In this document: in pieces, positions 41,187 to 62,441 of the stretch | Layout: every line of letters starts with the position of its first letter | Position numbering within the stretch: position 1 is the stretch's first letter | Source of the DNA: an uncultured Opitutaceae bacterium | GTDB lineage: Bacteria; Verrucomicrobiota; Verrucomicrobiia; Opitutales; Opitutaceae | Length of the DNA stretch: 64,000 nt | NCBI GenBank assembly: GCA_937902925.1 | Contig: CALFNN010000042.1 | Coordinates: 1-64,000 of the forward strand | Reading direction: 5' to 3' | The notes under the pieces: generated by a model | What the model saw: only the letters and a program-made list of their open reading frames with translations | Told to the model about the DNA's origin: nothing | Database searches by the model: none | Position numbers and translations under genes: made by a program

Positions 41187-41408
41187 GTCGGACGCGGGTG
41201 GCGGTTCCATCGGCCGCCGCACCGGCGGGGCGCCGGGCGTCGTCCAGCTTCCGGCTATTTCCGCCGCAACCGGCGCGCCTGACGGAAATGTCAGATTCGC
41301 GCGTTCGTGGGCCGTGCGACCCGCCGGCAACCTCGGGCCGCATCGCCGCCGCGGCGGCTCCGTGAGCCTGCGGGCGTCCCGAGCCTTTCAAAAATCCGCC
41401 TCCTCTTT

Positions 41409-42173: not shown

Positions 42174-43567
42174 ACTTCTGGTGGCGCCGGCGAACGCTGC
42201 GGTTCCGGCTCGCGCTCTGGTATGGCGTCGGCGGCACCGTGCTGCTGGCCGCCTTCAGCGCGACGCTGTATCTCTACGTTTCGAGCAACATGGCGGCGCC
42301 GCTCGACGAGGGGCTGCGCCAGGATCTTGCAGAGATTCTTCGCCGGCTCAAGGTCGAGCCGGATCATCGCGTGTTCTGGGATGGTTCCCTGGTGCGTGGC
42401 GCCGCGTGGAATCCCGAGGACCCGTGGTTCGAGCTCTGGGATGAACATGGCGTTCTGGTGCGCCGCCTCTGGCCATTCCGCGGCCGCCTCGAACACCTGC
42501 CCATGGCGCCCGTGCCCAACCGGGAAACGCTCTCCATTTTCAATGTCGCCCGCGACATCCGGCTGCGCGTGCTTTCGGTGCCGTATTCCTCGCCCGGGAT
42601 TCCCGAGGGCTGGATGATCCGCGTGATGTCGGTCCACCAGCCCGCCGCGGGGCCGCTGGGCCCGCTGCAGGTGATCATCGTCACCGCCCTGCCGGTCGTC
42701 GTCGCCCTGCTCGTGCTCGGCGGGTTCGTCGTCACCCGCCGCTGGTTGATGCCCCTCGACGAAATGGTGAACGAAGCCAACCGGATCACCGCGGACGACC
42801 TGAGCCGGCGGCTGCCGGTCGTGAATCCCCACGATGAACTCGGCCGGCTGGCCACGGTGTTCAATGTCACGCTCGACCGGCTGCAGGACTCGTTCGTGAC
42901 GCTCGACCGCTTCGTTGCCGACGCCTCGCACGAACTGCGGACGCCCTTGACGACATTGCGCAGCGTCGGCGAGGTCGGCCTCCGCCGCGGCCGCTCGGTC
43001 GAGGAATACCGCGACATCATCGCCAGCATGCTGGAGGAATCGCAGCGGCTGCAGCTCCTCATCGAGCGGCTGCTCGAGCTGGCGAGCGCCGAGGGCGGCG
43101 TGTCGGTGGTTCAACCCGCCCGGATCCAGCTCGATGAATTCGTCACCACCTGCGTCAGCGAATTGGGCATCCTCGCCGAGAACCGGGGCCAGCACCTCAC
43201 CCTCGAAACCGTCGCCTGCGCGACCGAAACCGATCCGGTGATTCTCCGACAGGCGTTGCAAAACCTCGTCGACAATGCGCTCAAATACAGCCCCGACGGT
43301 GCCACTATCCGCGTGTCCGTCCGGGCGACGGATACTGCGTGCGCCGTCTCCGTCACCGACGAGGGCCCGGGCATCAGCCCCGAACACCGAGCCCGGTTGA
43401 CCGAGCGATTCTTCCGTTCCGACAGTTCGCGCGATCGCCGCAAGGGCGGTTTCGGCCTCGGCCTCTCGATCACGAAGGCCTACATGCGTGTCCTCGGCGG
43501 AACGCTGGCGTATGAGGCGGCCCAGCCCAAGGGCAGCACGTTCCGGCTCACGCTGCCGAAAGCCTGA
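42170..43567 (+). CDS. Two-component sensor histidine kinase
   Basis: A 465-residue inner-membrane kinase and cognate partner of the upstream regulator. Membrane segments lie at residues about 14-37 and 166-189, flanking a 128-residue periplasmic sensor region. HAMP (about 190-242) leads to the HisKA domain with H254 in VADASHELRTPLTTLRS. The ATPase domain has the N box LQNLVDNALKYSPDG and G boxes VTDEGPGIS and GGFGLGLSITKAYM. Organisation matches the CusS/heavy-metal sensor type, but the signal cannot be told. It starts at GTG 42170. Confidence 0.93.
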   Translation: MNFWWRRRTLRFRLALWYGVGGTVLLAAFSATLYLYVSSNMAAPLDEGLRQDLAEILRRLKVEPDHRVFWDGSLVRGAAWNPEDPWFELWDEHGVLVRRLWPFRGRLEHLPMAPVPNRETLSIFNVARDIRLRVLSVPYSSPGIPEGWMIRVMSVHQPAAGPLGPLQVIIVTALPVVVALLVLGGFVVTRRWLMPLDEMVNEANRITADDLSRRLPVVNPHDELGRLATVFNVTLDRLQDSFVTLDRFVADASHELRTPLTTLRSVGEVGLRRGRSVEEYRDIIASMLEESQRLQLLIERLLELASAEGGVSVVQPARIQLDEFVTTCVSELGILAENRGQHLTLETVACATETDPVILRQALQNLVDNALKYSPDGATIRVSVRATDTACAVSVTDEGPGISPEHRARLTERFFRSDSSRDRRKGGFGLGLSITKAYMRVLGGTLAYEAAQPKGSTFRLTLPKA

Positions 43568-47137: not shown

Positions 47138-50100
47138 TTACAAATCGAACGTCGCGGTCAGGATGAACTGCCGCGGATCGACGATACGGTAGCTAGAGAT
47201 GCTGCCGTCGGGGAAGGCGGCGATCGCCTGCAGCCGGCCGCTCTCCTGGATGTTGCGCACGTTGAACTGGAACGTCGCGCCCACCTTGTCCGCCCACAAC
47301 CGGGTCCGATATGTCACGAACGCATCGACGTAATAGTGCGCCTTGTCGTAGATTGGCCGGTTCGGATCGAGGTCGGTGATCGATGCCGGCAGCGATTGCA
47401 CCCCGTAGAAACCGATCGAGCCCTTGTCCTCCCAGCGGACCGAGCCGCCGATCGAGAACTTCTTGAGCAGCGGATTCTCGGTGATGCCGGCGAGCCGGAG
47501 ATTCGTGTTCAACTTCGCCGCGTATTCGCGGATCTGCGGCTTCGGCTTCCCCTCGGACTGGTGAATCACGCTATAGGGCGCCGCGACGAAAGTCTGGAAG
47601 TTCTGCGCCGCCGTCTGGGAGCCGCCATAGTTGTGATTCCACCAGAGTTGCTGCGGATCGACCGCGGGATCGATGGTCGGATCCTTGATCGTCGTCCAGA
47701 TCGGCATCCGCTTGTCGATGTAGTCCTGCACGCTGGTCGAGACGTTGACCGTCGTCGACTGGGTCTGCGTGACGGAGCCGGCCACGGTCCAGAACCGCGT
47801 GGGATTGAAATTCAGCTCGAGCTCGTTGCCCTGGGCGATGACGTCGTTCGTGGCGGCGATCGGCGGATTCTGCGTGCGCAACGCATCACGCAGCTCGGCG
47901 GAGATGCCGATTTCCTTGTCCGCCTCAGTCTCGATCTGGTCGGTGGTCCAGGTCGGATTCGCGACGGTGATCCAGTTGACGGCCGCATTGAACAACTGAA
48001 ACGCGTCGGCGGAACTGACGTCGTGACGCAGCACGCGTTGGGCAAGCGTGTTGGCATCGCCGTTGCGCGCGTTGAGCGCCCGGTTGATGTAGTGGTTGAT
48101 CCGGATGACGAACTTCCCGTCAAACGCGTTGAACGTGACGCCATAGTCCTCGCCCTGCCCGGAGGAGTTCGGCAGCGGCCGAAGGAACAAGTCCTGTGCG
48201 GGAGTCTGCGGCGTGAAGCTATCAGACTTATTGTAGCTGATCGACATCCCTCCCAGCAGGTTTGAAACGAAGTGACCCGCCTCGCCACTGTTGTTCATCG
48301 ATTCGAGAAACGCCATCCGCCGGAAAGGCTTCACCACCACGCCGCCGGTCTTGGTCTTGCCGCTGTTGAACCGCCAGTCGTCCGTTCCCCAGTGGTTGAT
48401 GTTTTCGTAGATGTAGCTGTTGCCGTCGGCACTGAGCTGGGGCTGCGCAGTGGAGTTTGGCGCGCCGAACTTGGCGTAGACCTTGTCTTCGCGCAGGCCG
48501 AACGTCGACACGATGCGGTCCCCGAGGAAATGACTCTGCAGCACGGCGCCGTAGGTCTTGAGGATGGTCTTGGTCCCGCTGGTCCCGCCGGAATACGCGC
48601 CCTTCGCAATCAAGGTGGGCTCGTGATGGAACGCGCCCGTCGCCCCGTTGCCCCACACGAAATCGTAGGTGCCGTATTTGAAGTTACTCGGCGCGTAATC
48701 GACGTTCACGCCCTTGTTGTCGCCGACATAATACCGGAAGTAAGAGACCCGGGTATTGGCGGCCGGCACCCAGGCGTGCGTGTCCGAGATCACATCGCGG
48801 AACGAATAACTCCGGTTGATCCGGTATTTGTATTCGTCGTAGGCCGTGAACTGGTGCAGGCCGAGCCATTTGAGCGCCCCGCTCTCGCGCGTCAGATCCA
48901 GCTTGTAGGCGAGCTGCGCCCGGTAGGTATCCCACTTTTCCGGCTGGTAGGATTCACGCGGCTGGTCGGTGCCGATGAACGGCTCCAGAAAATACGGGTT
49001 CGGCGTGCCGTCGAGCAGCCGCTCGTTGACGTCCATGATGAGCTGGCCCGACTGGCCGTTTTGATTCAGCCCGCTGACCAGATTACGGGCGTAACGCATG
49101 CTGTCCTCGCGGAAAAAGCCGCCCTGCACGGCCAGGGTCTGCATCGGCGTGTTCAGCAGCACCTGGTCGAGCTGCACGCTCGACGTCCGCGACCGGTCCC
49201 AGATCCGGTTCACCGCCGCGAGATTGACGTCCGTCCAGTCATACATGGACTTGTCGCTCACCGATGGCGTGGTCGTGAACAGCGGCTGCGACGAGATGTG
49301 CCCGAGTGCGACGCCGGCGGCGCCGCTGGAGCTGACAAAGCGGTCGGCCTGGCCGCCCGAGCCGGGCGCGGTGCCGGAGTTGGAATTCGGCGTGGTCCAG
49401 TAAACCATGTTGTTCGGCCCGACAAAAAACTGGCTGCGCGAACTGCCGGTGAAGGTGTTCAGAAAATAATCCGGCAGGCCGTTCGCGTTCGTATAGGTGC
49501 CGACCGTCACGCCATGCAGATGAACCTGCTGCGTCGGCGGATCGAACGTCGCCATCCCGCTATCGCGCCAATAGGAGATATTGTCGCGGGGCGGCACGAC
49601 ATTCGGACGGTTGCCGTTCATCCGGTAGTATTCGTAGGAGGCGGAGATCGTGGTGTTCTTGAATGGCTGGAACTTGATCATGCCGTTGTAGCGCACCGTA
49701 TTCGTCCCGGACGGCTTGCGGATATAGCCATCGTGCTGGAACGCCGCGCTGCCACGAACCGCCAGTTTGCCCTTCACGAGCACGCGGTTCAGGTCGACGC
49801 TCGTGCGATAGCCGTCGTAGCTATCCGCCCGAAACTGGACCTGCGAACGGTCGCGCGTCAGGTTGGCCGCCGCCGGCACTTGGTTGACCGTGCCCGCGGG
49901 ACTGCCCAGGCCGAAGACATTGGCGTTCGGACCGCGGCTCACCTCCACGCCGTCGATCGCCAGCGGGTCCACCGGCGTGCGCCCCTGCGTCTCGTAATTC
50001 CCCATGGAAATATTCGCCGCCGCGATGCCACGGATGCGGTTGGCGTTGGCCGGGTCGAGTTCCACGTTGTCCGCCACGCTGCCGTTGCGGTCGATCGTGA

Positions 50101-50563
50101 GATCCGTGAACGTGCCCGTGCCCTCGGTGTTCGCGGTGTAATTGAAGATGTCGTTCACGTCGAGCATCGCGAAATCCGACATCTGTTCCTTCGTCACCAC
50201 CGTGATCGACGCACCCAAGTCCTCGATCTTCGAGTTGAACCGGGTGCCCGACATCGTGTTCGAGGAATAATATCCCTTCGTGTCGGACACCACTTCGAAG
50301 GGCGAAAGCTGGACGACCGGCTCGGAACCCGCGGTGCTCGCGGCAGCGGTGGTCGTCGGGACCGCTCGGGCGCGGTCCGCCTGCATTGCATTTAATTCGG
50401 CGGGATCGAGCCGGCCGTTCTTGTTGGTATCATACTTCGCGAGGTCGGCAGCGGAGGCCGTCGACGCCGCGGCGACTTGTGCCCTGCATGGCGAAAAAAT
50501 CGCAACAGTCAGCGCAAGCAGCAGCGATCCGGGCATCCGATAGATGGCATGTTTTGGGGTCAT
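47138..50563 (-). CDS. Giant TonB-dependent receptor with N-terminal EF-hand (array member 1)
   Basis: A 1141-residue outer-membrane receptor. Residues 1-29 are the signal peptide. Residues 45-56 form a canonical EF-hand loop, DTNKNGRLDPAE. A putative TonB box (VVQLSPFEVVSDT) precedes the plug (about 100-230: FNSKIEDLGASITVVTKEQM, VEVSRGPNANVFGLGSPAG), and the large barrel ends FILTATFDL. Size is like SusC proteins but no SusD gene is present. It is a close paralog of the receptor upstream. ATG 50563 is chosen because it begins the signal peptide. The start is preceded by a conserved leader hairpin and operator set. Substrate unknown; an oligosaccharide is plausible next to sugar genes. Confidence 0.92.
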   Translation of the reverse strand: MTPKHAIYRMPGSLLLALTVAIFSPCRAQVAAASTASAADLAKYDTNKNGRLDPAELNAMQADRARAVPTTTAAASTAGSEPVVQLSPFEVVSDTKGYYSSNTMSGTRFNSKIEDLGASITVVTKEQMSDFAMLDVNDIFNYTANTEGTGTFTDLTIDRNGSVADNVELDPANANRIRGIAAANISMGNYETQGRTPVDPLAIDGVEVSRGPNANVFGLGSPAGTVNQVPAAANLTRDRSQVQFRADSYDGYRTSVDLNRVLVKGKLAVRGSAAFQHDGYIRKPSGTNTVRYNGMIKFQPFKNTTISASYEYYRMNGNRPNVVPPRDNISYWRDSGMATFDPPTQQVHLHGVTVGTYTNANGLPDYFLNTFTGSSRSQFFVGPNNMVYWTTPNSNSGTAPGSGGQADRFVSSSGAAGVALGHISSQPLFTTTPSVSDKSMYDWTDVNLAAVNRIWDRSRTSSVQLDQVLLNTPMQTLAVQGGFFREDSMRYARNLVSGLNQNGQSGQLIMDVNERLLDGTPNPYFLEPFIGTDQPRESYQPEKWDTYRAQLAYKLDLTRESGALKWLGLHQFTAYDEYKYRINRSYSFRDVISDTHAWVPAANTRVSYFRYYVGDNKGVNVDYAPSNFKYGTYDFVWGNGATGAFHHEPTLIAKGAYSGGTSGTKTILKTYGAVLQSHFLGDRIVSTFGLREDKVYAKFGAPNSTAQPQLSADGNSYIYENINHWGTDDWRFNSGKTKTGGVVVKPFRRMAFLESMNNSGEAGHFVSNLLGGMSISYNKSDSFTPQTPAQDLFLRPLPNSSGQGEDYGVTFNAFDGKFVIRINHYINRALNARNGDANTLAQRVLRHDVSSADAFQLFNAAVNWITVANPTWTTDQIETEADKEIGISAELRDALRTQNPPIAATNDVIAQGNELELNFNPTRFWTVAGSVTQTQSTTVNVSTSVQDYIDKRMPIWTTIKDPTIDPAVDPQQLWWNHNYGGSQTAAQNFQTFVAAPYSVIHQSEGKPKPQIREYAAKLNTNLRLAGITENPLLKKFSIGGSVRWEDKGSIGFYGVQSLPASITDLDPNRPIYDKAHYYVDAFVTYRTRLWADKVGATFQFNVRNIQESGRLQAIAAFPDGSISSYRIVDPRQFILTATFDL

Positions 50564-50652: not shown

Positions 50653-50666
50653 GAGACACGTGTCTC
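50653..50666. promoter_or_regulatory. 14-bp perfect DNA palindrome before receptor gene 1
   Basis: GAGACACGTGTCTC is fully self-complementary with a central CG, as in operators of dimeric regulators such as the LacI family. It has no loop, so it is unlikely to act as an RNA hairpin. A 10-bp core (GACACGTGTC) recurs at the same place before receptor gene 2. Confidence 0.6.
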
Positions 50667-50698: not shown

Positions 50699-50731
50699 CC
50701 GACAACGGGCGCCACCTGACATTTTTGTCAG
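50699..50731 (-). promoter_or_regulatory. Composite operator-like element before receptor gene 1
   Basis: A perfect inverted repeat CTGACA-N4-TGTCAG (50716-50731) is accompanied by a third half-site (CCGACA, 50699-50704) 11 bases nearer the gene. The same three-part element precedes all four receptor genes of the array. It starts 136 bases before the start codon. Confidence 0.7.
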
Positions 50732-50781
50732 AATTGAACGCGGGCACGTGTCCGGACATCCCGTCGCCCCAATCCTGGCGT

Positions 50782-50815
50782 AAAAAAGAAGCACGCGGGC
50801 CGATCCGCGTGCTTC
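50782..50815 (-). terminator. Terminator of receptor gene 2 of the array
   Basis: A perfect 11-bp stem (GAAGCACGCGG with its complement, loop of six, 50788-50815) is followed on the minus strand by six T. It lies 37 bases past the receptor stop at 50852. Confidence 0.88.
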
Positions 50816-50851
50816 CCACTGGACGAGCGGGACCGACCCGCACGTCCCCGA

Positions 50852-53800
50852 CTACAAATCGAAGGTTGCGGTCACAATGAATTGCCGGGGATCCACGATC
50901 CGGTAGGCCGAGGGTGACCCATCCGGAAAGGCGGCAATGGGCTGAAGTCGGCCGCCCTCCTGGAGGTTGCGCACATTGAGCTGAAACGTTGCGCCGACCT
51001 TGTCGTTCCAAAGCTTGGTGCGATACGTAACGAAGGCGTCGAGGTAGAAATGCGCCGGATCGTAAATCGGTTTGTTCGGATCCAACGCGGTGATCGAGGC
51101 GGGCAGCGACTGGACGCCGTAGAACCCGATCGAGCCCTTGTCCTCCCAGCGCACGGAACCGCCCACGGAGAACTTCCGCCATAGCGGATGTTCGGTGATA
51201 CCCGACAACCGCAGGTTTGTGCTCATCTTGGCCGTATACTGGCGGAGCTGCGACTTCGGCTTGCCTTCCTGTTCGCGGATCACGCCATACGGTGCTTCCA
51301 CGAACGTCTGGAAGTTTTGCTCCGCCGTCTGCGATCCACCGTAATTGTGGGTCCACCAAAGTTGGTCCGGCTCGACCGTGGGATCGATCGTCGGGTCCTT
51401 GATCGTGGTCCAAATCGGCATGCGCAAGTCGATGTAATCCTGAATGGTCCGGGACACGTTGGTCGTCGTCGACTTTTTCTGAGTGATCGAACCCGCCACT
51501 GTCCAATACCGCGTCGGGTTGAAGTTGATCTCAATCTCCGTCCCCGAGGCGGTAATATCGTTGGTCGCCGCGAGGCCCGGATTCTGCGTGATGAGTGCGT
51601 TCCGCAACGCCGGTGCGATTCCGATCTCGACGCAGGCCTCGGCTTCGAGCTGGTCGACCGTCCAGTCCGGATGCGCCGCTTCTATCCAATCGTAGGCGCG
51701 GCTGAACAATTGGAATGGATCAGCCGAGCTGACATCGTGGCGCAGAACGCGCTGGGCGATCGTGTTGGCGTCACCGCTGCGCGAGTTGAGCGCCTTGTTG
51801 ATGTAGTGGTTGACCCGAACGACGAATTTCCCGTTGAACGCGTTGAACGAGAAACCGTAGTCCTTCCCTTCACCGGTGGAATTCGGCAGCGGACGCAGAA
51901 AGAGATCCTGCGCGGGATTCTGCGGCGTGAAGCTATCGGACTGATTGTAGCTCAGGGCAAGACCACCGAGCAGGTTGGAAAAGACGTGGCCCGCAGTGCC
52001 GCTGTTGTTCAGGCTCTCGAGGAACCCCATTCGCCGGAATGGTTTGACGACAACGCCGCCGGTCTTGGTGTCGCCTTGGTTGGTCGACCAGTCGCCCGTC
52101 GACCAATGGCGGATGGCATCGAAGTTGTAGTTCAAGCCATCCGGCGTGAGCTGCTGGGCGGCAGTAAGGCCGCCCAGCGCCCCTTTTAAATTCACCTCGT
52201 CGTGGCGGAGGCCGAACGTGGTCACGATGTGATCGCCCAGCAGATGACTCTGCAGCACGGCGCCCCTCGTTTTCAAGATCGTCTTGCTCGCCCCACCCGC
52301 GCCCCCGCTATAGGCGCTGCGCTGCAGGATCGTAGGTTCGTGGTGGAAGACCCCGGTGGAGGCGTTGCCCCACGTGTAGTTGTAGGTGCCGTATCGAAAT
52401 GCCTGCGGGGCGTAGTCGACATTGTAGCCCACGTTGTCGCCGACGTAATAGTGGATGTAGTTGCGCTGGATGTTGCTGTTCGGCGTCCAGGCGTGATCGC
52501 CCGTAACATAGTCGCGGTAGGACTCGCTGTAGTTTATCCGGTATTTGTATTCATCGTAGGCCGTGAACTGATGCAGCCCCAGCCATTTCAGGGGATTACT
52601 GACGCGAGTCAGGTCGAGCTTGTAGGCGAGCTGGCCGCGGTAGGTATCCCACTTCCGCGGTTGATAGTATTCCCGCGGCGCATCGGTCCCGATGAACAGC
52701 ATCCGGAAATACGGATTGGGCGTGCCGTCGATCAGCCGCTCGTTGACATCAGCGATGAGCTGGTTCGACGCCCCGTTCTGGCTCAGGCCGCTGACTTGAT
52801 TGCGATTATAGCGTTGCGTGTCCTCCCGGAAGAACGAGCCCTGCACGAAGAGCGTCTGCATTGGCGTGTTCAACAACAGTTGGTCGAGGTTGAAGGTGGT
52901 CGTCGCCGTCCGGTCCCAAATCCGGTTGACTGCAGCCAGGTTGATCGACGTCCAGTCATAGAGGGATTGATCGCTGATCGTCGGCGTCGCGGTGAACAAC
53001 GGCTGGGCGCTGATATGTCCCAGCGCCACGCCCGCCGCCCCGGCCGAGGTGATGAAGCGGTCTGGCTGGTTCCCGCTTCCTGGCGCCGTGCCCGAGTTGG
53101 CATTCGGCGCCGTCCAGTAGACCTGATTGTCCGGACCGACAAAAAGCTGGCTGCGCCCGCTTCCCGTGTAGGTATTGAGGAAGGCGTCGGGCAGGCCTTT
53201 CGCGCTCGTGAACGTCCCCACCGTGGCCCCGTTCAGGTGAACTTGCTGTGTCGGTGGATCGAACGACGGCGCGCCGCTGTTCCGCCAATAGGAAACGTTG
53301 TCGCGGGGCGGGACCGCATTGGGGCGGTTGCCGTTCATCCGGTAATAGGAAAAGGAGCCGGAAATCGTCGTATTCTTGAACGGCTGGAACTTGATCATGC
53401 CGTTGTAGCGCACGGTATTTGTGCCCGACGGTTTGCGCACATAACCATCGTGCTGGAATGCACCGCTCGCGCGGATCGCCAGCTTGCCTTTCACGAGCAC
53501 GCGGTTCAGGTCGAGGCTCGTGCGATAGCCATCGTAGCTGTCCGCGCGAAACTGCACCTGCGACCGATCGCGCGTCAGGTTGGCCGCCGCCGGCACCTGG
53601 TTGACCGTGCCGGCAGGACTGCCGAGCCCGAAGACGTTGGCATTCGGTCCGCGGCTCACCTCGACGCCATCGATGTTGAGCGGATCGACCGGCGTGCGCC
53701 CCATGGTTTCAAAATTGCCCATCGAGATGTTGGCGTTGGCGATACCGCGCACGCGATTGGCGTTGGCCGGATCCAGTTCCACGTTGTCCGCCACGCTGCC

Positions 53801-54274
53801 GTTGCGATCCACGGTCAGGTCGGTGAACGTGCCCGTGCCCTCGGTATTCGCGGTGTAGTTGAAGATGTCGTTCACATCGAGCATCGCGAAATCCGACATC
53901 TGCTCTTTGGTCACCACGCTGATCGACATGCCGAGGTCCTCGATCTTCGAGTTGAAGCGCGTCCCGGACATCGTGTTCGAGGCGTAGTAGCCGTTCGTGT
54001 CGGACACGACCTCGAAGGGTGACAGCTCCACCACCTTGTCGCGCTCCGGCGCGGTCGTCTTGGTCACTGGGACGGCCTTTGTCCGATCCGCCTGCATGGC
54101 GTTGAGTTCGGCCGGATCGAGCCGGCCGTTCTTGTTGGCATCATATCTGATGAGATCCGCCGCCGAGACAGCCGGTGACGAGGCGATTTGCGCCCAAGCC
54201 GGCGTGAAGGCGGCGACTGCGATTGCAATTAACAGATGCGGGCGCATCCAACGGATCGAATATTTTGGGGTCAT
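50852..54274 (-). CDS. Giant TonB-dependent receptor with N-terminal EF-hand (array member 2)
   Basis: A 1140-residue paralog of array member 1, one residue shorter and similar along its whole length, evidently from tandem duplication. Signal peptide is residues 1-29, and the EF-hand loop DANKNGRLDPAE is at 45-56. The putative TonB box is KVVELSPFEVVSDT, the plug runs about 95-225 (TMSGTRFNSKIEDLGMSISV, GPNANVFGLGSPAGTVNQVP), and the barrel ends FIVTATFDL. Divergence from member 1 is scattered through the barrel, as expected if the ligands differ. Its upstream DNA shares three elements with member 1. No SusD-like gene accompanies it. Substrate unknown. Confidence 0.92.
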   Translation of the reverse strand: MTPKYSIRWMRPHLLIAIAVAAFTPAWAQIASSPAVSAADLIRYDANKNGRLDPAELNAMQADRTKAVPVTKTTAPERDKVVELSPFEVVSDTNGYYASNTMSGTRFNSKIEDLGMSISVVTKEQMSDFAMLDVNDIFNYTANTEGTGTFTDLTVDRNGSVADNVELDPANANRVRGIANANISMGNFETMGRTPVDPLNIDGVEVSRGPNANVFGLGSPAGTVNQVPAAANLTRDRSQVQFRADSYDGYRTSLDLNRVLVKGKLAIRASGAFQHDGYVRKPSGTNTVRYNGMIKFQPFKNTTISGSFSYYRMNGNRPNAVPPRDNVSYWRNSGAPSFDPPTQQVHLNGATVGTFTSAKGLPDAFLNTYTGSGRSQLFVGPDNQVYWTAPNANSGTAPGSGNQPDRFITSAGAAGVALGHISAQPLFTATPTISDQSLYDWTSINLAAVNRIWDRTATTTFNLDQLLLNTPMQTLFVQGSFFREDTQRYNRNQVSGLSQNGASNQLIADVNERLIDGTPNPYFRMLFIGTDAPREYYQPRKWDTYRGQLAYKLDLTRVSNPLKWLGLHQFTAYDEYKYRINYSESYRDYVTGDHAWTPNSNIQRNYIHYYVGDNVGYNVDYAPQAFRYGTYNYTWGNASTGVFHHEPTILQRSAYSGGAGGASKTILKTRGAVLQSHLLGDHIVTTFGLRHDEVNLKGALGGLTAAQQLTPDGLNYNFDAIRHWSTGDWSTNQGDTKTGGVVVKPFRRMGFLESLNNSGTAGHVFSNLLGGLALSYNQSDSFTPQNPAQDLFLRPLPNSTGEGKDYGFSFNAFNGKFVVRVNHYINKALNSRSGDANTIAQRVLRHDVSSADPFQLFSRAYDWIEAAHPDWTVDQLEAEACVEIGIAPALRNALITQNPGLAATNDITASGTEIEINFNPTRYWTVAGSITQKKSTTTNVSRTIQDYIDLRMPIWTTIKDPTIDPTVEPDQLWWTHNYGGSQTAEQNFQTFVEAPYGVIREQEGKPKSQLRQYTAKMSTNLRLSGITEHPLWRKFSVGGSVRWEDKGSIGFYGVQSLPASITALDPNKPIYDPAHFYLDAFVTYRTKLWNDKVGATFQLNVRNLQEGGRLQPIAAFPDGSPSAYRIVDPRQFIVTATFDL

Positions 54275-54296
54275 AGTTTGCGGCGGTTGGAAGTAG

Positions 54297-54313
54297 CCGT
54301 CAGTCACTGACGG
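54297..54313 (-). promoter_or_regulatory. Leader hairpin before receptor gene 2
   Basis: CCGTCAGT-C-ACTGACGG is a perfect inverted repeat ending 23 bases before the start codon, matching the imperfect copy before receptor gene 1. It could fold in the mRNA leader just upstream of the ribosome site, or bind a protein as DNA. Confidence 0.5.
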
Positions 54314-54367
54314 CCGGAAAGGGGCGGAATTCGCAGACACGGCCGGCTCGCCTGAATCAGCCGCTGC

Positions 54368-54377
54368 GACACGTGTC
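54368..54377. promoter_or_regulatory. 10-bp DNA palindrome before receptor gene 2
   Basis: GACACGTGTC lies 65 bp, centre to centre, from the composite element upstream. The corresponding palindrome of receptor gene 1 lies 64 bp away. The flanking CGA(G)ACACGTGTC sequence is also shared. Confidence 0.55.
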
Positions 54378-54412
54378 TCGGACGCACTCGATCTCTCCCG
54401 ACTTCACCACAC

Positions 54413-54445
54413 GCGACAAGGATCGCCGCCTGACAGTTGTGTCAG
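54413..54445 (-). promoter_or_regulatory. Composite operator-like element before receptor gene 2
   Basis: CTGACA-N4-TGTCAG (54430-54445) has a third half-site GCGACA (54413-54418) 11 bases nearer the gene. The element starts 139 bases before the start codon. A second, slightly degenerate inverted repeat (CTGAC-N6-GTCAG, 54461-54476) lies 31 bp further upstream, about three helical turns away. Confidence 0.7.
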
Positions 54446-54540
54446 CGATACCCGGCATCTCTGACTTTTCCGTCAGCCGCCTATTGCGTATCCATACCTT
54501 ACTGTCGCTAATGGCCGCAACTCGTCGCGGCAGTTGGCAA

Positions 54541-54570
54541 AAAGAAAAACGCGCGGCGTCAGCCGCGCGT
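54541..54570 (-). terminator. Terminator of receptor gene 3 of the array
   Basis: A perfect 9-bp stem (ACGCGCGGC with its complement, loop of four, 54549-54570) is followed on the minus strand by a T-rich run. It lies 36 bases past the receptor stop at 54606. Confidence 0.85.
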
Positions 54571-54605
54571 CGACTGGGGAAATTCGAAACCGCGATCCGC
54601 GAACG

Positions 54606-57600
54606 TCAGAGATCGAACGAGGCGGTCAGGATGAATTGCCGGGGATCGATGATGCGGAAGTTATAGCCGCGGCCGTCGGGATTCACGCCGATGGTCTGGA
54701 GCCGTCCACCCTCGAATGCGTTGCGCACGTTGAGCTGGAAGTTCGCCGAAATGCGGTTGTTGAACAGCCGCAGCCGGTGGGAAATGAAGAGGTCGACGTA
54801 AGTGTGCGGGGAATCGTAAACCGGTTTCGAGGGATCGAGCGAGCGAACCACGTCGTCGGCGTCGGGCGCAGCGCCAAGGAAACCGATCGAACCCCGGTCC
54901 TCCCAACGCAACGCTCCACCGACGACCGTGCGGCGGATCCAGTCCCGTTCGATGTCGAGGCCGGCGAGTTTATAGCTGGTCGTGGCGCTCCAGTGCCACT
55001 CACGGACCTGGGAGCGCGACTTCCCCTGGTTGGCCGTGGCGAGTTTGTAGGGAGCCAATACCACACCCTGATAAAACGCCTCCGGCGTGCCTGCACTGCC
55101 GTAGCGCGTCATCCACCACTGGCTGCCGTCGACCGGGTTGATGACGTCCTGCCAAACGGGAAGCCGATAGTCGAAATAACGCTGGATGTTCGGCGAGAGG
55201 TTGCTGTCGATCGTTTTCTGCTCCGAGCCGGCGACCTTGAGCGTCCAGTAGTTCGAAGGATTGAAATTGATTTCAAATTCCCAGCCCTTCGAGGCGACAT
55301 CCTGTGTCGCCGCGATGCTCTTGCCGACAATGTTCTCGATGAACCCGCCGGGGAGGCCCATCAGCTTGTAAACTTCCGACCGCTGTTGCTCCGCGGTGAA
55401 CTCGGGATGCAGCTGCGCGACCCACTCGGTCGCCCGGTCCTCGAGGTTGAATCCGTCGCTGCCGAAGTCGATGCGATTGGCGCGCGTGGCGACGATGCCG
55501 GCGTCACCCCCGCGGGAATCCAGCTGCGAGTTCTCGTAGCGATTGATGCGCATCGAGAGCTTTTGGTGAAACAGGCTCAAGTTGACGCCGTAGTCCTCGC
55601 CCTCCCCCGTCGGACTCGGGAGAAGTTCGCCGAAGAGATCGTATTGAGCCGCCGCCGGCTGAAAGGTGTTGGAGGTGTTGTAATACACACTGCTGTTGCG
55701 CAACGAATCGGCGAGAAACGACAGCAGGCCCGGGCCACTGTTGGCGCGGCGGTCGATCGGCTTCCAATGTTGGAACGGCTTCACGACGATTCCGCGGGTG
55801 CGGGTCGTGCCTTGCTGCTCGGACCAGTTGCGCCAGACATTGAGCGGGGAAAGATCGTAGAGACCGGTGGCGGGATCGATCGTCGCTCCGTTGGAATCGC
55901 GGCTGCGATTGCGATCGCGGCGCGTGCCGACCGTGGTGACGACCCGCTCGCCCAGCCAGAAGCTCTGGAGCACGGCGCCGCGCGAGCGGATTTCGCGCTG
56001 ATTGCGGCTCGAGACATAGGATTCCTGCCCGATCGTCGCCGGTTCGGTGACCCACTGACCCGTGCCGCCGTCATACCAGTGAAAGTCGTAGGTGCCGCTC
56101 ACCCCGTAGAGCGCCGGAGGCGCGTAATCGATGTTCTGCCCCTTGGCGTCGCCAAGATAGTATTTGAAATACGCCCGGTTGGCGGCATTGCCGTTCGCGC
56201 GGTTGGCCGTGTTCACCCAGGTGTGATCGTCGGTCACAATCTCGCGGTAGCGGTAGAGGCCGGACGTGATCCGGCGCCCCTCCAGATAGCCCGAAACCCG
56301 ATGCCGCCCGAGCCAGTGCAGCCAGGGAGCCCTAGCCTGCTCGAGATTGAGTTGATAAGCCACCTGCACGCGTCCGTTGTCATTCAGCGACGGCCGGTTG
56401 TAGGTAGTGGGCTCGGATGCGCCAAGATAGGGCCGGAGAAAATAGGGATTGGTCGAGCCGTCGAGGAGCTTTTCGTTCACATCGATGAAGAGAATCGAAG
56501 AATTGCCGCTGATAAAATTGCGGCTGTAGTTGTCGACGTCCTCGCGGAACCAGCCCGCCTGAGCCGCGAGGAGGTGGACCGGCGTATTGATGAAGAATTG
56601 TTCCAGCTCGACGCGATAGGTGTCGGCTTTTTTCCGGGCAAAATTGGGCGCAACGTAGTTGATGCCCGTCCAGTCGTAGAGACTGGAATCGGTGATGCCC
56701 GGCGTGGTGAAGAGCGGCATCGTGGAACCGCGGGAGCGCATGATGGCGGTGGCCGATTCCAGGAAGCGGACATTGGTGTTGGGCGAATTGGCATTCGTCG
56801 TGGAGGTCGTGCGGTTGACACTCCAGTAGGCCACACCGCCGCCGTCGATATACATGCCCGGGCGATTATAGAATCCGGTTCCCTGGGAAATGAGGCCGGG
56901 CGGCAGCGCCCCGTCCTGCCCCTGCGTGAAGGTTCCGACCGCGACGCCGTTGACCTTGGCCGTCCACGTCGTCGGATCCCACGTCGGGCTGCCTACCGAG
57001 CGCCAGTAGGTAGTCGTGTCGCGCGGAGTCAGGTAGTTCGGTCGGCGCGCGAAGTTGTGATACGACTCGTAGCTCCCGCGAATCGTCGTGTTCTTGAACG
57101 GACGGTAGGTGAACATCGCCTCCTGGCGGCGGGTGATGTCCTTGGAGGGCTTGCGCACGTAGCCCGTGGAGTCGTAGAGGCCGAGCACGCGCACGGCCAG
57201 TTTGTCGCGGAACAACGACCGGTTAAGGTCGATGCTGGCGCGGTAGCCGCTGTAACTGTCGACGCGAATCGTGGCGGCGGACCGGTCGCGCGTGAGATTC
57301 GCCTGGCTTTGGATGACATTCACCGTGCCCGACGCATTCCCCAGGCCGAAGATATTTGAATTCGGACCCCGACTGATCTCAATGCCGTCGACGTTATAGG
57401 TATCGATCGGAATGCTGCTGTCGCTGGCAAAATTGCCGCGCGCAATGTTCGCCGACGCGATGCCGCGGATGCGATTGGCCGTGGTGGGACTACCCTGCAC
57501 CGCGTCATTGACGTCACCGTTTCGACCCACGCTAAAGTCGGTGAAATTACCCGTGCCCTCGGTGTTCGCCTCGTAGAGGAAAATATCGTTGATATCGACC

Positions 57601-58001
57601 GACGCAGTATCGAGCAGTTGCTGTTTGGTCACGACGGTGATCGATGAAGCCAGGTCCTCGATCTTCGAATTCAAGCGCGTTCCCGAAAGCGTGTTCGAGG
57701 CATAATAGCCGTTCTGGCCCTCATCCGTGACCTCGAATGGCGACATTTCCACCACGTCGGGGGTGGCGGAAGCCGCCTTCACGGTCACACCCGCCGCCCT
57801 GGCGAGGTCGGAGCGCCGGGCTGCCAGCTCGCCGGGATCGAGCCTGCCGTTTTTATTTGCATCGTATTTCGCCAGGTCCGCCGCCGGAACCGGGGATGTG
57901 GTCGCCTGTTGCGCGAGCAACGGCAGTCCGGAACAGGACACAATTATTGAAAGCATCACGCCGAAACCGAGTGAGCGGGGAAGCCAATGTTCTTTTTTCA
58001 T
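54606..58001 (-). CDS. Giant TonB-dependent receptor with N-terminal EF-hand (array member 3)
   Basis: A 1131-residue receptor, more distant from members 1 and 2 than they are from each other. The signal peptide is residues 1-31 (SIIVSCSGLPLLAQ). The EF-hand loop DANKNGRLDPGE is at residues 47-58. The putative TonB box is VVEMSPFEVTDE, the plug spans about 95-230 (SKIEDLASSITVVTKQQLLD, ISRGPNSNIFGLGNASGTVN), and the barrel ends FILTASFDL. It starts at ATG 58001 with no strong Shine-Dalgarno sequence. It shares the upstream composite element in degenerate form. Substrate unknown, and there is no SusD partner. Confidence 0.92.
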   Translation of the reverse strand: MKKEHWLPRSLGFGVMLSIIVSCSGLPLLAQQATTSPVPAADLAKYDANKNGRLDPGELAARRSDLARAAGVTVKAASATPDVVEMSPFEVTDEGQNGYYASNTLSGTRLNSKIEDLASSITVVTKQQLLDTASVDINDIFLYEANTEGTGNFTDFSVGRNGDVNDAVQGSPTTANRIRGIASANIARGNFASDSSIPIDTYNVDGIEISRGPNSNIFGLGNASGTVNVIQSQANLTRDRSAATIRVDSYSGYRASIDLNRSLFRDKLAVRVLGLYDSTGYVRKPSKDITRRQEAMFTYRPFKNTTIRGSYESYHNFARRPNYLTPRDTTTYWRSVGSPTWDPTTWTAKVNGVAVGTFTQGQDGALPPGLISQGTGFYNRPGMYIDGGGVAYWSVNRTTSTTNANSPNTNVRFLESATAIMRSRGSTMPLFTTPGITDSSLYDWTGINYVAPNFARKKADTYRVELEQFFINTPVHLLAAQAGWFREDVDNYSRNFISGNSSILFIDVNEKLLDGSTNPYFLRPYLGASEPTTYNRPSLNDNGRVQVAYQLNLEQARAPWLHWLGRHRVSGYLEGRRITSGLYRYREIVTDDHTWVNTANRANGNAANRAYFKYYLGDAKGQNIDYAPPALYGVSGTYDFHWYDGGTGQWVTEPATIGQESYVSSRNQREIRSRGAVLQSFWLGERVVTTVGTRRDRNRSRDSNGATIDPATGLYDLSPLNVWRNWSEQQGTTRTRGIVVKPFQHWKPIDRRANSGPGLLSFLADSLRNSSVYYNTSNTFQPAAAQYDLFGELLPSPTGEGEDYGVNLSLFHQKLSMRINRYENSQLDSRGGDAGIVATRANRIDFGSDGFNLEDRATEWVAQLHPEFTAEQQRSEVYKLMGLPGGFIENIVGKSIAATQDVASKGWEFEINFNPSNYWTLKVAGSEQKTIDSNLSPNIQRYFDYRLPVWQDVINPVDGSQWWMTRYGSAGTPEAFYQGVVLAPYKLATANQGKSRSQVREWHWSATTSYKLAGLDIERDWIRRTVVGGALRWEDRGSIGFLGAAPDADDVVRSLDPSKPVYDSPHTYVDLFISHRLRLFNNRISANFQLNVRNAFEGGRLQTIGVNPDGRGYNFRIIDPRQFILTASFDL

Positions 58002-58367
58002 AGGGTAGTGTAAGTTGGGCCCGGCTCATTCCGCGAAAGTCGCCAGGCGCGCCGGCCGGAGTATCACCGCGCGACCACCACGGTCCGCTTTGCATCACAA
58101 ATCACCGGTGCGAAACGAGAGTGCCAGCGCGGCGCTCATGCTGACAACGTGCACCGCCTTACAATTCGGTCAGCGCTCCGCTCCCCACGCTCAGCGGCCG
58201 GAAAAAGCAGCCGGGCTGGATGAGATTCCAGTCCCCGACCGGATGCGGAGGGCCGAATTCCTGTTACGCCAGCATACAACATAGTGCCGACGGCCACCGC
58301 AAAACCCTGCCGGTGCTCGACTCCACGGCCGCCGCCGATTCTCCGGTCTCAGCGAACAACAACCTCA
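58002..58367. promoter_or_regulatory. Promoter region of receptor gene 3
   Basis: A 366-base non-coding stretch. Besides the composite element at 58141-58173 it has an 8-bp palindrome CACCGGTG (58103-58110). Its centre is 59 bp from the composite element, close to the 64-65 bp of the ACACGTGT palindromes before genes 1 and 2. No protein-like frame is seen. Confidence 0.45.
58141..58173 (-). promoter_or_regulatory. Composite operator-like element (degenerate) before receptor gene 3
   Basis: The inverted repeat here is imperfect (CTTACA-N4-GGTCAG, 58158-58173, one mismatch in each arm), but the third half-site is perfect (CTGACA, 58141-58146) with the same 11-base spacing. On the minus strand it also shares the following GGCGG sequence with gene 2. 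It starts 140 bases before the start codon. Confidence 0.55.
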
Positions 58368-58400
58368 TAAAAAACTCCCCTGCCGCCGGGCAGGGGAGTT
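58368..58400 (-). terminator. Terminator of receptor gene 4 of the array
   Basis: A perfect 12-bp stem (AACTCCCCTGCC with its complement, loop GCCG, 58373-58400) is followed on the minus strand by six T. It lies 52 bases past the receptor stop at 58452. Confidence 0.9.
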
Positions 58401-58451
58401 GTGGGCGAATCGGACAGGCCGGCCTTCAGCGAGGCCGGCTGCTCGTTGCGG

Positions 58452-61400
58452 TCAGAAGTCGAATGTCGAAGTCAGGAACCACGTTCGCGGATCGACGATG
58501 CGATACTGGGCCGGCGAGCCGTCCGCGTTGAAGATGATCGGCCGGAGCCCGCCCTTCTCCGTCGCATCGCGGACGTTCAACTGAAACTTCGCCCGCACGT
58601 TTTTGCCGAACAAATCCCGGCGCGTCGTATATGAAATCCAGAGATCCACGTTGGTGGTGGCCGGGATCGTGATCGGCTTGGTCAGGTCCGGATATGAGAT
58701 CAGGCTCTGCGTAGGCGTCGGATGAGTGAACTTCGCCGGATTCAGGTCGCCATAATAACTGACCACAGCGTTGGACGCCCAACGCAGACTGCCGCCCACC
58801 GCGAGGCCCCTCAGCTTCCCTTCCTGGAAGGAATAGTTGGAGATGAGACTGCTGCTCCATTCGCGCTGGCTCGGGGACTTGGTCCCCTGCAACGTGATCA
58901 ACTGATACAGTTGCGAATCAACAATGCCGTAGTAGGTGCTCTGCGGCGTGCTTCTCGCCCCGGTGGTGTTGGAGTTGGCATCGCCGGTGTAGCCGTAGCT
59001 GTTCCAAAAATCGCCCAGATATAGTTTGTTGCCGTTCGCTCTCGTATAAACGGTCGGCAGGTCGGCCGCCTTCAGGTTCTGCCAGAAGTTCAGGCGGCCG
59101 TTGCCGCTTTCCGCGGTGCCCGTGCCATAGAGCCAGGCGGTGATTTCACCGATGGCGTTGTTGTAGGTCGAGACCTGCTGGCCGACGGTGACCTTGATGT
59201 TCCAATTGCGCAGCGGGTTGTAGATCAACGAGCCCTCCATCCCCTTGGATTCCTGGGAATTGGTGCCTTGGATGTTGGTATTCGGCCACGGGATGAGTCC
59301 ACCGGACTGCCAGGCGGCCACGACCTGTTTTCCGTCGGACGTCTTCTCCGGCCCAGCCACGATCGCGTTGATCTGGTCCTGCATCGCGCTCGTCAACGGA
59401 TACACCGTGTTGTTGTCGAAGTTCACATCCGCCGGGTCCTCACCATTGCGAATACGCACGACTTCTCGCGCCCAGGCGAACGTGCTGCTCGTGTCGATGC
59501 GCTGGGCCCGCCCGATGGCGGTGCCGGCGGCGGACGACACGGCATGCTCGTTGGTGGACTTATACCAGCTGAGGGTCCACACCAGCTTGTTGTTGAACAT
59601 CGACCCGCGCACCCCGTAGTCCTTGCCGGTGCCGGAAGGCTTGGGCAAGAGGTTGCCAAAATAATCCGTGGTCGTGGTCGTCGGCGGGGTAAAGTTATTC
59701 GACTTGTTGTAAGAGAAGCCGAGATTGCGCACAAAATCCGCCAGCCAGTTTCCCCGTTCCGCCGCCGAATCGAGGGAGTGCCATCCGCTGAACGGCCGGG
59801 CGACGACGCCGATGGTGCTGGTGCGACCGGAGGCCACGTAGGGAGCGGCTCCGATTACCGACGACAACGGCTCATTGCCAACGCCGTTCGTGTAGAAGGC
59901 AGTCGTGGGGATGGCCGTGTTGTCCGGGTATCTGCCGTTATACGTGTAGATCTTCGCCTTGTCGTAACGCGTGCCGAGCGTCGGGATGATGCGGTTGCCC
60001 CACAGGCTGCCTTGGTAGGCAAAGCTCTGCGCCGTGAGAATCTTGTTGGTCACGCCAAAATTCGCTCCGGCGAAGAACAGCTCGGGGTCCATGGTCATGT
60101 TGGTCGTCTGCCAGCTTCCCGCGCCATTCCAGTCATAGTAGTTGAGCGCCACCTGATTGGGGCCGCCAAAGTCGGGATCGCCCAGCTTGGCGACCCCCTG
60201 GCTCACCTGGCCCTGGCCGCCGCCGCCCAAGTAGTAGTGGCGCTCGATCGATGACGACTGTCCAAAACTGAAGCCCGCCGTCTGCTCGTTGGGCAGGAAC
60301 CGCGGATCGCCCGAGGTGAACCCAAGGCGGTAACGCAGATTGTTCTTCCAATCCTTCTGTTGGGTTCCGAGCGCCGAGAACCGGTGGTTTCCCAGGAAAC
60401 GGGTCCAGCCCTCGTTCTTGGAGAACTTGAGGTCATACACCAGCATGGCGCGCAGGTTGTCGTTCACTTCCGGGCTGTTGAAACTGTCTTCCTGATAGTC
60501 GAGGATAAACGGCGCCCCAAAGTAAGGGTTCGTGGCCCCGTTCATCAGCTTCTTGTTGGTATCGACGAAGATTCTCGTGGCTTGGTTGGCCTGCCCGAGG
60601 CCGTAATGATCCCATTGATTGTATTCCTGGCGGAACCAGCCCGCATTGAAATTCAACGTCGGGAGAATCTCCTGCGTCCACTCGAGGTTGTAGGTCCGCC
60701 CCGTTGCCGAGCCATAGTTGGCGCCCTGGGAATTATATTTCGTCCAATCGTAGAGATTCTTGTCCGTGATCCCGACGTTATACCAGGTCGAGTAGCTTGT
60801 CGCCCCGGTGCTCGCCGGCGGCACGGGCGTCACAAACCCCGCCGACTCGGTCTGGTAGTTGTTGGCGATGATCCATTGCGCCGCGGTCCGGCCTGCCGCC
60901 GTTGCGGCCGGCAGCGCCGCCGATCCGTTCGTGTTCGCTCCAGTCGTTGCATTGGCCACAAAGGCGTTTACGAACTGACCGCCATCGACGTTCAGCGAGT
61001 TGTGTCCGAGCACGGCCAAGCCCGGAACATAATATGCAGAGGTCGTGCCGGTGAACGCCCCGCTGCCGTTGACCGACAGCGTCACCCCGGTGGCCAGCGC
61101 CGCCGCATAGCGGGGGTCCAGCGTCGAGGCCAGAAACGGCCCCTTCACCGTGCCGTTGGCCAATGTGATCGTCTGCGTGGTTGGGTCCCAGCCCGGCCTG
61201 CCGGCTTCGACCCACGGCGTGATATAGTCCGACGGCTCGATGTAGTTCGGCCGGTTGTTGTTGTTGGCGTAATATTCAAAACTGCCCGTGATCTTGGTTT
61301 TGGAAAACGGCTGGTAGGTGAATGCCGCAAACCGCCGACGGTAGATATCCGACGACGGCTTCCGTTCGAAACCCTTGTGATCCTCCAGCCAGGCCAGATA

Positions 61401-62237
61401 AACCGCGAACTTGTTCCCGAGTGGAATGTTCAGGCTGATGCTCTCGCGATGGGCCCCGAAGCTGCCAAATTGGTCCTTCACCGTGGTGTGCCATTTGTTC
61501 AGGACCGCCTCGCTCGTCGATTGGTTGACGATACCGGACGCGCCGCCCGCGCCGAAGAGCATCGAGTTCGGGCCGCGGTTGATTTCGACGGAGTTGGTGT
61601 TGTAGGAGTCGAACGCCATCCGCGAGATGGTCGGATGGTTGTTCTGCGCGGTATCCGCCGCTCCCAGGCCACGGACGCGATTGGCGGTCGCTATGCCATA
61701 CGGCGTGCCGTCGTCCCCACTATAGCCGCCAATCGCATCGGTGGCCGTGCCACGGTTGACATAGGTCGGCGTGTAGTTGCCGGCGCCCTCGGTGTTCGCC
61801 TCATAAAGGAACACGTCGTTGATGTTGAGCGCGCCGGTGTCGTCGAGTTGCTGCTTGGTCACCACCGTGATCGAGGACGCCAAGTCACCCACGTTTGTGT
61901 TCAGGCGGCTGCCGGCGAGCGTGTTCTCCGCGTAGTAACCCGTGTCCTTGCTCGCATCGACTTGGAACGGGCTGAGCGTGACCACGTCCGGGGAGGTGGA
62001 AGTGGCGGCGGTGGTCGCACGGGTTGCGCCCGACTTCGCCTGATCCGCCTGCCTCGCAGCCGATTCGCCGGCGTCCAGTCGCCCGTCGTGGTTTTTGTCG
62101 TATCTGGCGAGATCGTCCGCCGAGACGGCGGGCCTCGGGGCGGTCTGCGCAGCCGACGTCAGGGCGGTCAGGAGCGCGCAGGAGATCAGAAGCAATATTC
62201 GTTCGAATGCGCCCAGTCTATCTTGTTCCATTTTCAT
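58452..62237 (-). CDS. Giant TonB-dependent receptor with N-terminal EF-hand (array member 4)
   Basis: A 1261-residue receptor, the longest of the four. The signal peptide is residues 1-30 (RILLLISCALLTALTSAAQ). The EF-hand loop DKNHDGRLDAGE is at residues 47-58. The putative TonB box is VVTLSPFQVDASKD, the plug spans about 95-250 (TNVGDLASSITVVTKQQLDD, INRGPNSMLFGAGGASGIVN), and the barrel ends FLTSTFDF. Extra length lies in loop regions of the barrel (Ala/Thr/Asn-rich stretches near residues 400-500). ATG 62237 begins the signal peptide; the open frame beyond it is non-coding leader. Substrate unknown. Confidence 0.92.
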   Translation of the reverse strand: MKMEQDRLGAFERILLLISCALLTALTSAAQTAPRPAVSADDLARYDKNHDGRLDAGESAARQADQAKSGATRATTAATSTSPDVVTLSPFQVDASKDTGYYAENTLAGSRLNTNVGDLASSITVVTKQQLDDTGALNINDVFLYEANTEGAGNYTPTYVNRGTATDAIGGYSGDDGTPYGIATANRVRGLGAADTAQNNHPTISRMAFDSYNTNSVEINRGPNSMLFGAGGASGIVNQSTSEAVLNKWHTTVKDQFGSFGAHRESISLNIPLGNKFAVYLAWLEDHKGFERKPSSDIYRRRFAAFTYQPFSKTKITGSFEYYANNNNRPNYIEPSDYITPWVEAGRPGWDPTTQTITLANGTVKGPFLASTLDPRYAAALATGVTLSVNGSGAFTGTTSAYYVPGLAVLGHNSLNVDGGQFVNAFVANATTGANTNGSAALPAATAAGRTAAQWIIANNYQTESAGFVTPVPPASTGATSYSTWYNVGITDKNLYDWTKYNSQGANYGSATGRTYNLEWTQEILPTLNFNAGWFRQEYNQWDHYGLGQANQATRIFVDTNKKLMNGATNPYFGAPFILDYQEDSFNSPEVNDNLRAMLVYDLKFSKNEGWTRFLGNHRFSALGTQQKDWKNNLRYRLGFTSGDPRFLPNEQTAGFSFGQSSSIERHYYLGGGGQGQVSQGVAKLGDPDFGGPNQVALNYYDWNGAGSWQTTNMTMDPELFFAGANFGVTNKILTAQSFAYQGSLWGNRIIPTLGTRYDKAKIYTYNGRYPDNTAIPTTAFYTNGVGNEPLSSVIGAAPYVASGRTSTIGVVARPFSGWHSLDSAAERGNWLADFVRNLGFSYNKSNNFTPPTTTTTDYFGNLLPKPSGTGKDYGVRGSMFNNKLVWTLSWYKSTNEHAVSSAAGTAIGRAQRIDTSSTFAWAREVVRIRNGEDPADVNFDNNTVYPLTSAMQDQINAIVAGPEKTSDGKQVVAAWQSGGLIPWPNTNIQGTNSQESKGMEGSLIYNPLRNWNIKVTVGQQVSTYNNAIGEITAWLYGTGTAESGNGRLNFWQNLKAADLPTVYTRANGNKLYLGDFWNSYGYTGDANSNTTGARSTPQSTYYGIVDSQLYQLITLQGTKSPSQREWSSSLISNYSFQEGKLRGLAVGGSLRWASNAVVSYYGDLNPAKFTHPTPTQSLISYPDLTKPITIPATTNVDLWISYTTRRDLFGKNVRAKFQLNVRDATEKGGLRPIIFNADGSPAQYRIVDPRTWFLTSTFDF

Positions 62238-62385
62238 GTCTGTTTTTGGTTTCGGGGTTGGTTTGCACGGGCACGGCCAGGTGCCGGAGGGGAAATTTTC
62301 ACGCCGTTGAAAAAGGGCGGGCGCGAAGCGCGGCGTCATCGAGGGTGCGAGCCGCCGCGGTTTTTCTTTTGCGCCGCGCGCCGGT

Positions 62386-62399
62386 CACCTTCAAAGGTG
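62386..62399. promoter_or_regulatory. 14-bp interrupted palindrome before receptor gene 4
   Basis: CACCTT-CA-AAGGTG pairs perfectly in both arms. It lies 41 bp, centre to centre, from the composite element, so it may be this gene's counterpart of the second palindrome seen before genes 1 and 2. Confidence 0.4.
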
Positions 62400-62407
62400 C
62401 CAGGCGG

Positions 62408-62441
62408 CTGACAGTCCGATTTTTCCTGACATTTCTGTCAG
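62408..62441 (-). promoter_or_regulatory. Composite operator-like element before receptor gene 4
   Basis: A perfect CTGACA-N4-TGTCAG (62426-62441) has a third half-site CTGACA (62408-62413) 12 bases nearer the gene. It starts 171 bases before the start codon, further than in genes 1-3, because of a longer leader. Read as RNA the repeat has a GAAA loop, so a leader hairpin is an alternative reading. Confidence 0.68.

Follow-up and report, generated by a model that had tools for sequence, protein, structure and literature searches.

A CTGACA-N4-TGTCAG box ahead of TonB-dependent receptor genes in an Opitutaceae bacterium, very probably bound by a two-component regulator of the copper-sensor type

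Heavy-metal operators and the palindrome in the window

Response regulators of the heavy-metal class of the OmpR family are described with operators that are inverted repeats of 6-4-6 layout. TGACA-N4-TGTCA is given as the box of both P. aeruginosa CopR and E. coli CusR (PMC12428095), the E. coli CusR box is also written as AAAATGACAAnnTTGTCATTTT (PMC11195947), and the box of AgrR from Cupriavidus metallidurans is ATKACANNNNTGTMAT, i.e. ATKACA-N4-TGTMAT (PMC7380067). The account of AgrR adds an in-phase direct half-site, autoregulation and a box centred near -43.5 at the regulator's own promoter (PMC7380067). In the cusR-cusC DNA of E. coli we read ATGACAATTTTGTCAT, followed by TTTTCTGTCAC.

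The window analyzed here is a stretch of 64,000 nucleotides (C42:1-64000) from the genome of an uncultured Opitutaceae bacterium (G000; 6.0 Mb in 105 contigs, 95% complete). A preliminary description had placed a palindrome with a third half-site before four receptor genes, and the elements read as claimed at 50699-50731, 54413-54445, 58141-58173 and 62408-62441, their gene-proximal ends lying 136, 139, 140 and 171 bases from the ATGs at 50563, 54274, 58001 and 62237. The repeats of genes 1, 2 and 4 are perfect, and both the degenerate repeat claimed for gene 3 and the second repeat claimed for gene 2 are recovered with two mismatches (Table 1). A fifth copy, absent from that description, precedes a response-regulator gene. 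With up to two mismatches the window holds 8 copies of CTGACA-N4-TGTCAG against 1.2 expected, a number reached by none of 100 shuffles. The 16-mer of the second gene 2 repeat also precedes another receptor gene (contig C84).

Table 1. Palindromes, flanking elements and genes in the window
Feature	Positions	Strand	Remark
Palindrome CTGACGGAAATGTCAG, 115 bp ahead of regulator ATG	41279..41294	+	1 mismatch; proposed autoregulatory site
OmpR/PhoB-family response regulator	41409..42173	+	proposed box binder; nearest NCBIfam model TIGR01387
Sensor histidine kinase (HAMP/HisKA)	42170..43567	+	proposed partner; nearest NCBIfam model TIGR01386
TonB-dependent receptor gene 1	47138..50563	-	Plug domain
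T-N-G element (TTG), gene 1	50703..50705	-	part of the third half-site of the preliminary description
Palindrome CTGACA-N4-TGTCAG, receptor gene 1	50716..50731	-	perfect
TonB-dependent receptor gene 2	50852..54274	-	Plug domain; ORF open to 54340
T-N-G element (TTG), gene 2	54417..54419	-	
Palindrome, receptor gene 2	54430..54445	-	perfect
Second palindrome, upstream, receptor gene 2	54461..54476	-	2 mismatches
TonB-dependent receptor gene 3	54606..58001	-	Plug domain
T-N-G element (TTG), gene 3	58145..58147	-	
Palindrome, degenerate, receptor gene 3	58158..58173	-	2 mismatches
TonB-dependent receptor gene 4	58452..62237	-	Plug domain; ORF open to 62339; start taken from the preliminary description
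TGTCAG copy, gene 4	62408..62413	-	out of register with conserved T-N-G
Palindrome, receptor gene 4	62426..62441	-	perfect

The preliminary description could name no regulator for such a site, but the heavy-metal OmpR-family class represented by CusR, CopR and AgrR has this very 6-4-6 arrangement. The box shares TGACA-N4-TGTCA with CusR and CopR, as well as the position of a copy ahead of the regulator's own operon (PMC12428095, PMC11195947). The outer arm base is A/T in E. coli cus and C/G here. With AgrR, as far as its published account goes, the system has in common an OmpR-family regulator, a 6-4-6 inverted repeat, an extra element by the palindrome and autoregulation, which for our regulator is a proposal; this extra element is T-N-G here and, for AgrR, a direct half-site lying in phase (PMC7380067). 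The targets in these accounts are silver and copper genes for AgrR and copper efflux regulons for CusR and CopR, in contrast to the surface genes found here. The string CTGACANNNNTGTCAG had no match in the literature searched.

The window regulator is 42% identical to E. coli CusR and 47% to P. syringae CopR, and a FastTree tree places it with its same-family relatives in a clade of its own, next to CusR/CopR/HprR but outside them. Its best model is TIGR01387 (cztR_silR_copR), at 211.2 bits and thus below the cut-off of 279.2; the kinase likewise matches TIGR01386 (heavy-metal sensor kinases) best, at 270.3 bits against a cut-off of 292.55. At the operator level the regulator would therefore behave like the CusR type, while models below cut-off and a separate clade leave it a candidate member of that family. 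An alignment of 13 kinases shows, for the sensor part, no clear metal-binding motif and no invariant His or Cys; one Met, adjoining a Trp, is invariant. E. coli PhoB is 33% identical to the window regulator and falls on a different tree branch. The Pho box of PhoB consists of direct repeats of CTGTCAT and so shares the TGTCA half-site, within the same protein superfamily; it was rejected as a model for our box, which is an inverted and not a direct repeat.

Sites and target genes across the genome

Genome-wide, CTGACA-N4-TGTCAG has eight perfect sites and four with one mismatch, against none and one (at up to one mismatch) for a reversed-pattern control. Allowing two mismatches yields 78 sites against 59 in the control, mostly noise, so the degenerate repeat of gene 3 owes its standing to its position and would not stand alone. 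A concentration of sites before TonB-dependent receptors had been predicted, and five of the eight perfect sites do lie just upstream of such genes. Among all twelve sites, with genes called by a home-made ORF picker, six precede TonB-dependent receptor genes (genes 1, 2 and 4 of the window and loci L006, L007 and L009). The remaining six lie one each ahead of a gene for a MacB-type permease, from which a BlaI-type repressor gene diverges (a perfect box), between a PTPS-like gene and the gene for a beta-strand-repeat surface protein, ahead of an arabinofuranosidase-like gene, ahead of the response regulator (the 41279 copy), beside an ArsR/methyltransferase-type gene (L011), and apparently inside coding DNA (L012).

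The genome encodes 71 Plug-domain receptors, nine of which have a site with up to two mismatches near the gene start (five perfect, six with at most one mismatch). In the same upstream regions, 120 permuted palindromes give means of 0 perfect sites, 0.18 at up to one and 2.2 at up to two mismatches. Nine receptors at up to two mismatches are reached by 5 of the 120 permutations; the three weakest receptor sites are therefore carried by position and not by count. The tie to EF-hand receptors drawn in the preliminary description does not hold up: three of the nine receptors lack an EF-hand-like motif (scored by regular expression), only 6 of the 24 receptors with the motif have a site, and the site also precedes regulator, glycosyltransferase-like, surface-repeat and MacB-type genes. 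The targets are neither all receptors (9/71) nor the EF-hand ones alone.

Perfect boxes are present in 11 of 20 regulator-bearing relatives, at 20 sites (control 0). Their targets comprise the regulator itself, TonB-dependent receptors, a CotH/lamin-tail protein, sugar-related genes and polytopic glycosyltransferase-like proteins, the latter including clusters c1 (no Pfam match) and c6 (PMT_2); proteins of c1 and c4 were named glycosyltransferase-like by eye from sequence and not by family match. Annotation covered part of the genes neighbouring the boxes, and among these we recognized no metal-efflux gene. Perfect sites also turned up in 9 of 57 genomes picked by kinship alone, G000 and G033 included; those of the other seven genomes look like chance, since six of their nine sites fall inside a predicted ORF or at its border.

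Several further features accompany the sites. A second palindrome, GACACGTGTC, lies between box and start of genes 1 and 2, at 50655-50664 and 54368-54377. It has 13 copies genome-wide (control 0), five of which are followed by a Plug-domain match no more than 700 bp downstream, and may be the operator of another regulator. Receptors of different classes at L006 (C74) and L007 (C104) have a near-identical block, GGCTGGTTTACGGAYACSTGTCC, right after the box, and this block links the box to the second palindrome. At L013:9311-11755 (contig C47), a BlaI-type repressor gene and a BlaR1/TonB-like fusion are divergent from the boxed MacB-type gene. Upstream of gene 4, from 62523 to 63998 and beyond (L020:524-4286), lie genes for a sucrose-synthase-like glycosyltransferase and for a sucrose-phosphate phosphatase/invertase-like fusion. 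In three relatives (G141, G006 and G033) one of these genes, or each of them, has a homologue near the regulator. A 17-mer identical to the gene 3 repeat occurs outside the window at C42:66452-66467 (L020), with unrelated flanks.

The T-N-G element beside the palindrome

Each of the four window genes has TGTC 11-12 bases past its palindrome, which had been read as a third half-site. We compared 31 non-redundant sites from G000 and related genomes (seven of 38 dropped as redundant), each oriented by its nearest downstream gene. TGTC at the proposed spacing (17-18 bp start to start) is found at only 5 of the 31. Beyond the palindrome, conservation is strongest for T at offset 10 (22/31; p ~5e-9) and G at offset 12 (25/31; p ~2e-8), neither value being corrected for the number of columns inspected. 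T10 and G12 each occur at 7 of 11 own sites, and at 15 and 18 of the 20 sites of relatives. What is conserved is thus T-N-G and not a full half-site. Half-sites 17-18 bp apart would be out of helical phase, and T-N-G fits neither half-site orientation; we therefore rejected the half-site reading, while the underlying idea of one regulator docking as a dimer with an extra contact agrees with a palindrome plus a conserved extra element.

On the gene strand the spacer reads RAAW, with A as its third base in 27 of 31 sites. Nine later sites, oriented by the spacer only, have T10 in six cases and G12 in five. Three fail both, and these have no forward gene just downstream; in the other six T10 is present in 6/6 and G12 in 5/6, one of them (L303) resembling an already counted flank.

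The preliminary description also offered TTGTC as a -35 element. T-N-G is a possible -35 core by its sequence, TTG being present in 9 of 31 sites and in none of 1000 shuffles. A TATAAT-like -10 finds no support: the value obtained is reached by 207 of 2000 local shuffles (240 with site orientations corrected), and TATAAT ranks 14 of 20 permutations. With no -10 found, T-N-G is a candidate -35 at most.

The regulator, its relatives and rival explanations

We searched 200 genomes of the same family for the window regulator and found it at no less than 62% identity in 21 (23 genes, window gene included). Within 420 bp before the receiver domain, a box with at most one mismatch precedes 8 of the 23 (four perfect; window gene included), where the chance of such a box is about 0.0009 per gene. 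A later set of 32 further genomes gave 18 regulator genes, 17 of which were scanned (57-81% identity); one with only 106 bp of upstream DNA was left out. Six of the 16 counted have the box with at most one mismatch (one perfect), and three more with two mismatches. For 15 of the 23 genes of the first set and 10 of the 16 of the later one, the 420 bp upstream hold no box of up to one mismatch; the assemblies of many relatives are incomplete. In the first set a two-mismatch box precedes the regulator of G084, and a box with three mismatches is found in G062. The regulator gene of G217 is among those with no box of up to one mismatch: such a box, with one mismatch, stands ahead of the preceding beta-strand-repeat (PATR) gene, which is followed directly by regulator and kinase.

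Searching 252 family genomes, we found CTGACANAAWTGTCAG, the box with its oriented spacer, in 17 of them (27 copies) and the reversed form in none. Among the 200 genomes the oriented form is present in 12 of 21 with the regulator and in 1 of 179 without (Fisher 6e-13), four genomes with homologues at only 50-57% identity being scored as without. Nine of the 21 regulator-bearing genomes lack this form, and one genome (G201, assembly 93% complete) has the box with no regulator match. In the later test the regulator is found in 4 of 5 box-bearing genomes, but also in 12 of 27 without the oriented form, so it does not require that form of the box. Among homologues from other taxa, an upstream box of the form NTNACA-N4-TGTNAN is found in only 1 of 80: Bordetella petrii MY10 (L076), of another phylum, has the exact box CTGACAGGAATGTCAG about 108 bp upstream of the point where the match to its response-regulator gene begins.

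Very probably, the protein that docks at the box is the two-component regulator of copper-sensor type whose gene lies a few kilobases away. Another protein could instead bind it, the window regulator being merely one of the targets, as G000 encodes about a dozen OmpR-type regulators. The binder might be the paralogue on contig C70 alone, 74% identical and with CTGACGATCCGGTCAG upstream (two mismatches), or a different OmpR-type regulator: those at L033 and L034, 43-44% identical, also have the N that is found in the region of the recognition helix in CusR and CopR. Against this, the box in relatives precedes orthologues at 57% identity and above, and is absent, even with up to three mismatches, upstream of the six scanned homologues at 50-57%. 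We regard a different binder as improbable, and the C70 paralogue probably uses the same operator as the window regulator.

A second alternative takes the inverted repeat as an RNA hairpin in the 5' leader, where a stem of 6 bp with a loop of four bases could fold and act on the mRNA. TGTAAG replaces TGTCAG, paired with CTGACA or CTGACG, in 5 of the 16 upstream regions of the later regulators. This recurrent one-arm variant would break a pair in RNA and therefore disfavours the hairpin; the protein-bound AgrR box, ATKACA-N4-TGTMAT, is degenerate (G/T and C/A) at the same position of the arm (PMC7380067). Since the positions of box to gene also vary widely and the box matches published protein-bound operators, as these are described, we consider the hairpin very unlikely. 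A Lux-type quorum-sensing box, 20 bp long in Vibrio, is suggested by several copies that extend to ACCTGACA-N4-TGTCAGGT, likewise 20 bp, with AC/GT flanks in L004, L006 and L007, but scarcely credible and dropped, as the LuxR autoinducer-binding domain (PF03472) has no match in this 95% complete genome while its E. coli control matched (LuxI, PF00765, also gave none, though its control had no match anywhere either).

We return to the regulator at 41409-42173 as a relative of CusR, CopR and AgrR. Its kinase would sense an envelope signal and phosphorylate it; the regulator would then sit on the palindrome as a symmetric dimer, next to the T-N-G that starts 10 bp downstream and is maybe the -35 of the target promoter. 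We infer activation and not repression, both of its own operon and of surface uptake and envelope genes, here mainly TonB-dependent receptors. This draws on the palindrome itself and its enrichment, on the copies ahead of the regulator gene in relatives, on box and regulator occurring together, and on the conservation of T-N-G. We consider it likely, as a whole, that CTGACA-RAAW-TGTCAG is the operator through which the kinase drives this activation.

The operator type was already known; what is new is its phylum, the T-N-G register and a regulon of surface genes, which is apparently rewired. We lean, with some reserve, towards a branch of copper/silver-type two-component systems that kept the ancestral operator while its regulon exchanged metal-efflux genes for genes of the cell surface (two receptor classes, polytopic glycosyltransferase-like, beta-strand-repeat and CotH-type proteins), with the box held at a constant 10 bp from the T-N-G, by which the promoter register would be set. 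The control of TonB-dependent receptor genes in this phylum seems little studied: a search on this subject had no such title among the matches listed, nor was there one on this phylum among the matches listed for CusR-type regulators and TonB-dependent receptors. With a regulator, a kinase and a readable operator named, the inducing signal of these receptors becomes directly testable. The result suggests an operator that is common to different phyla and serves different genes.
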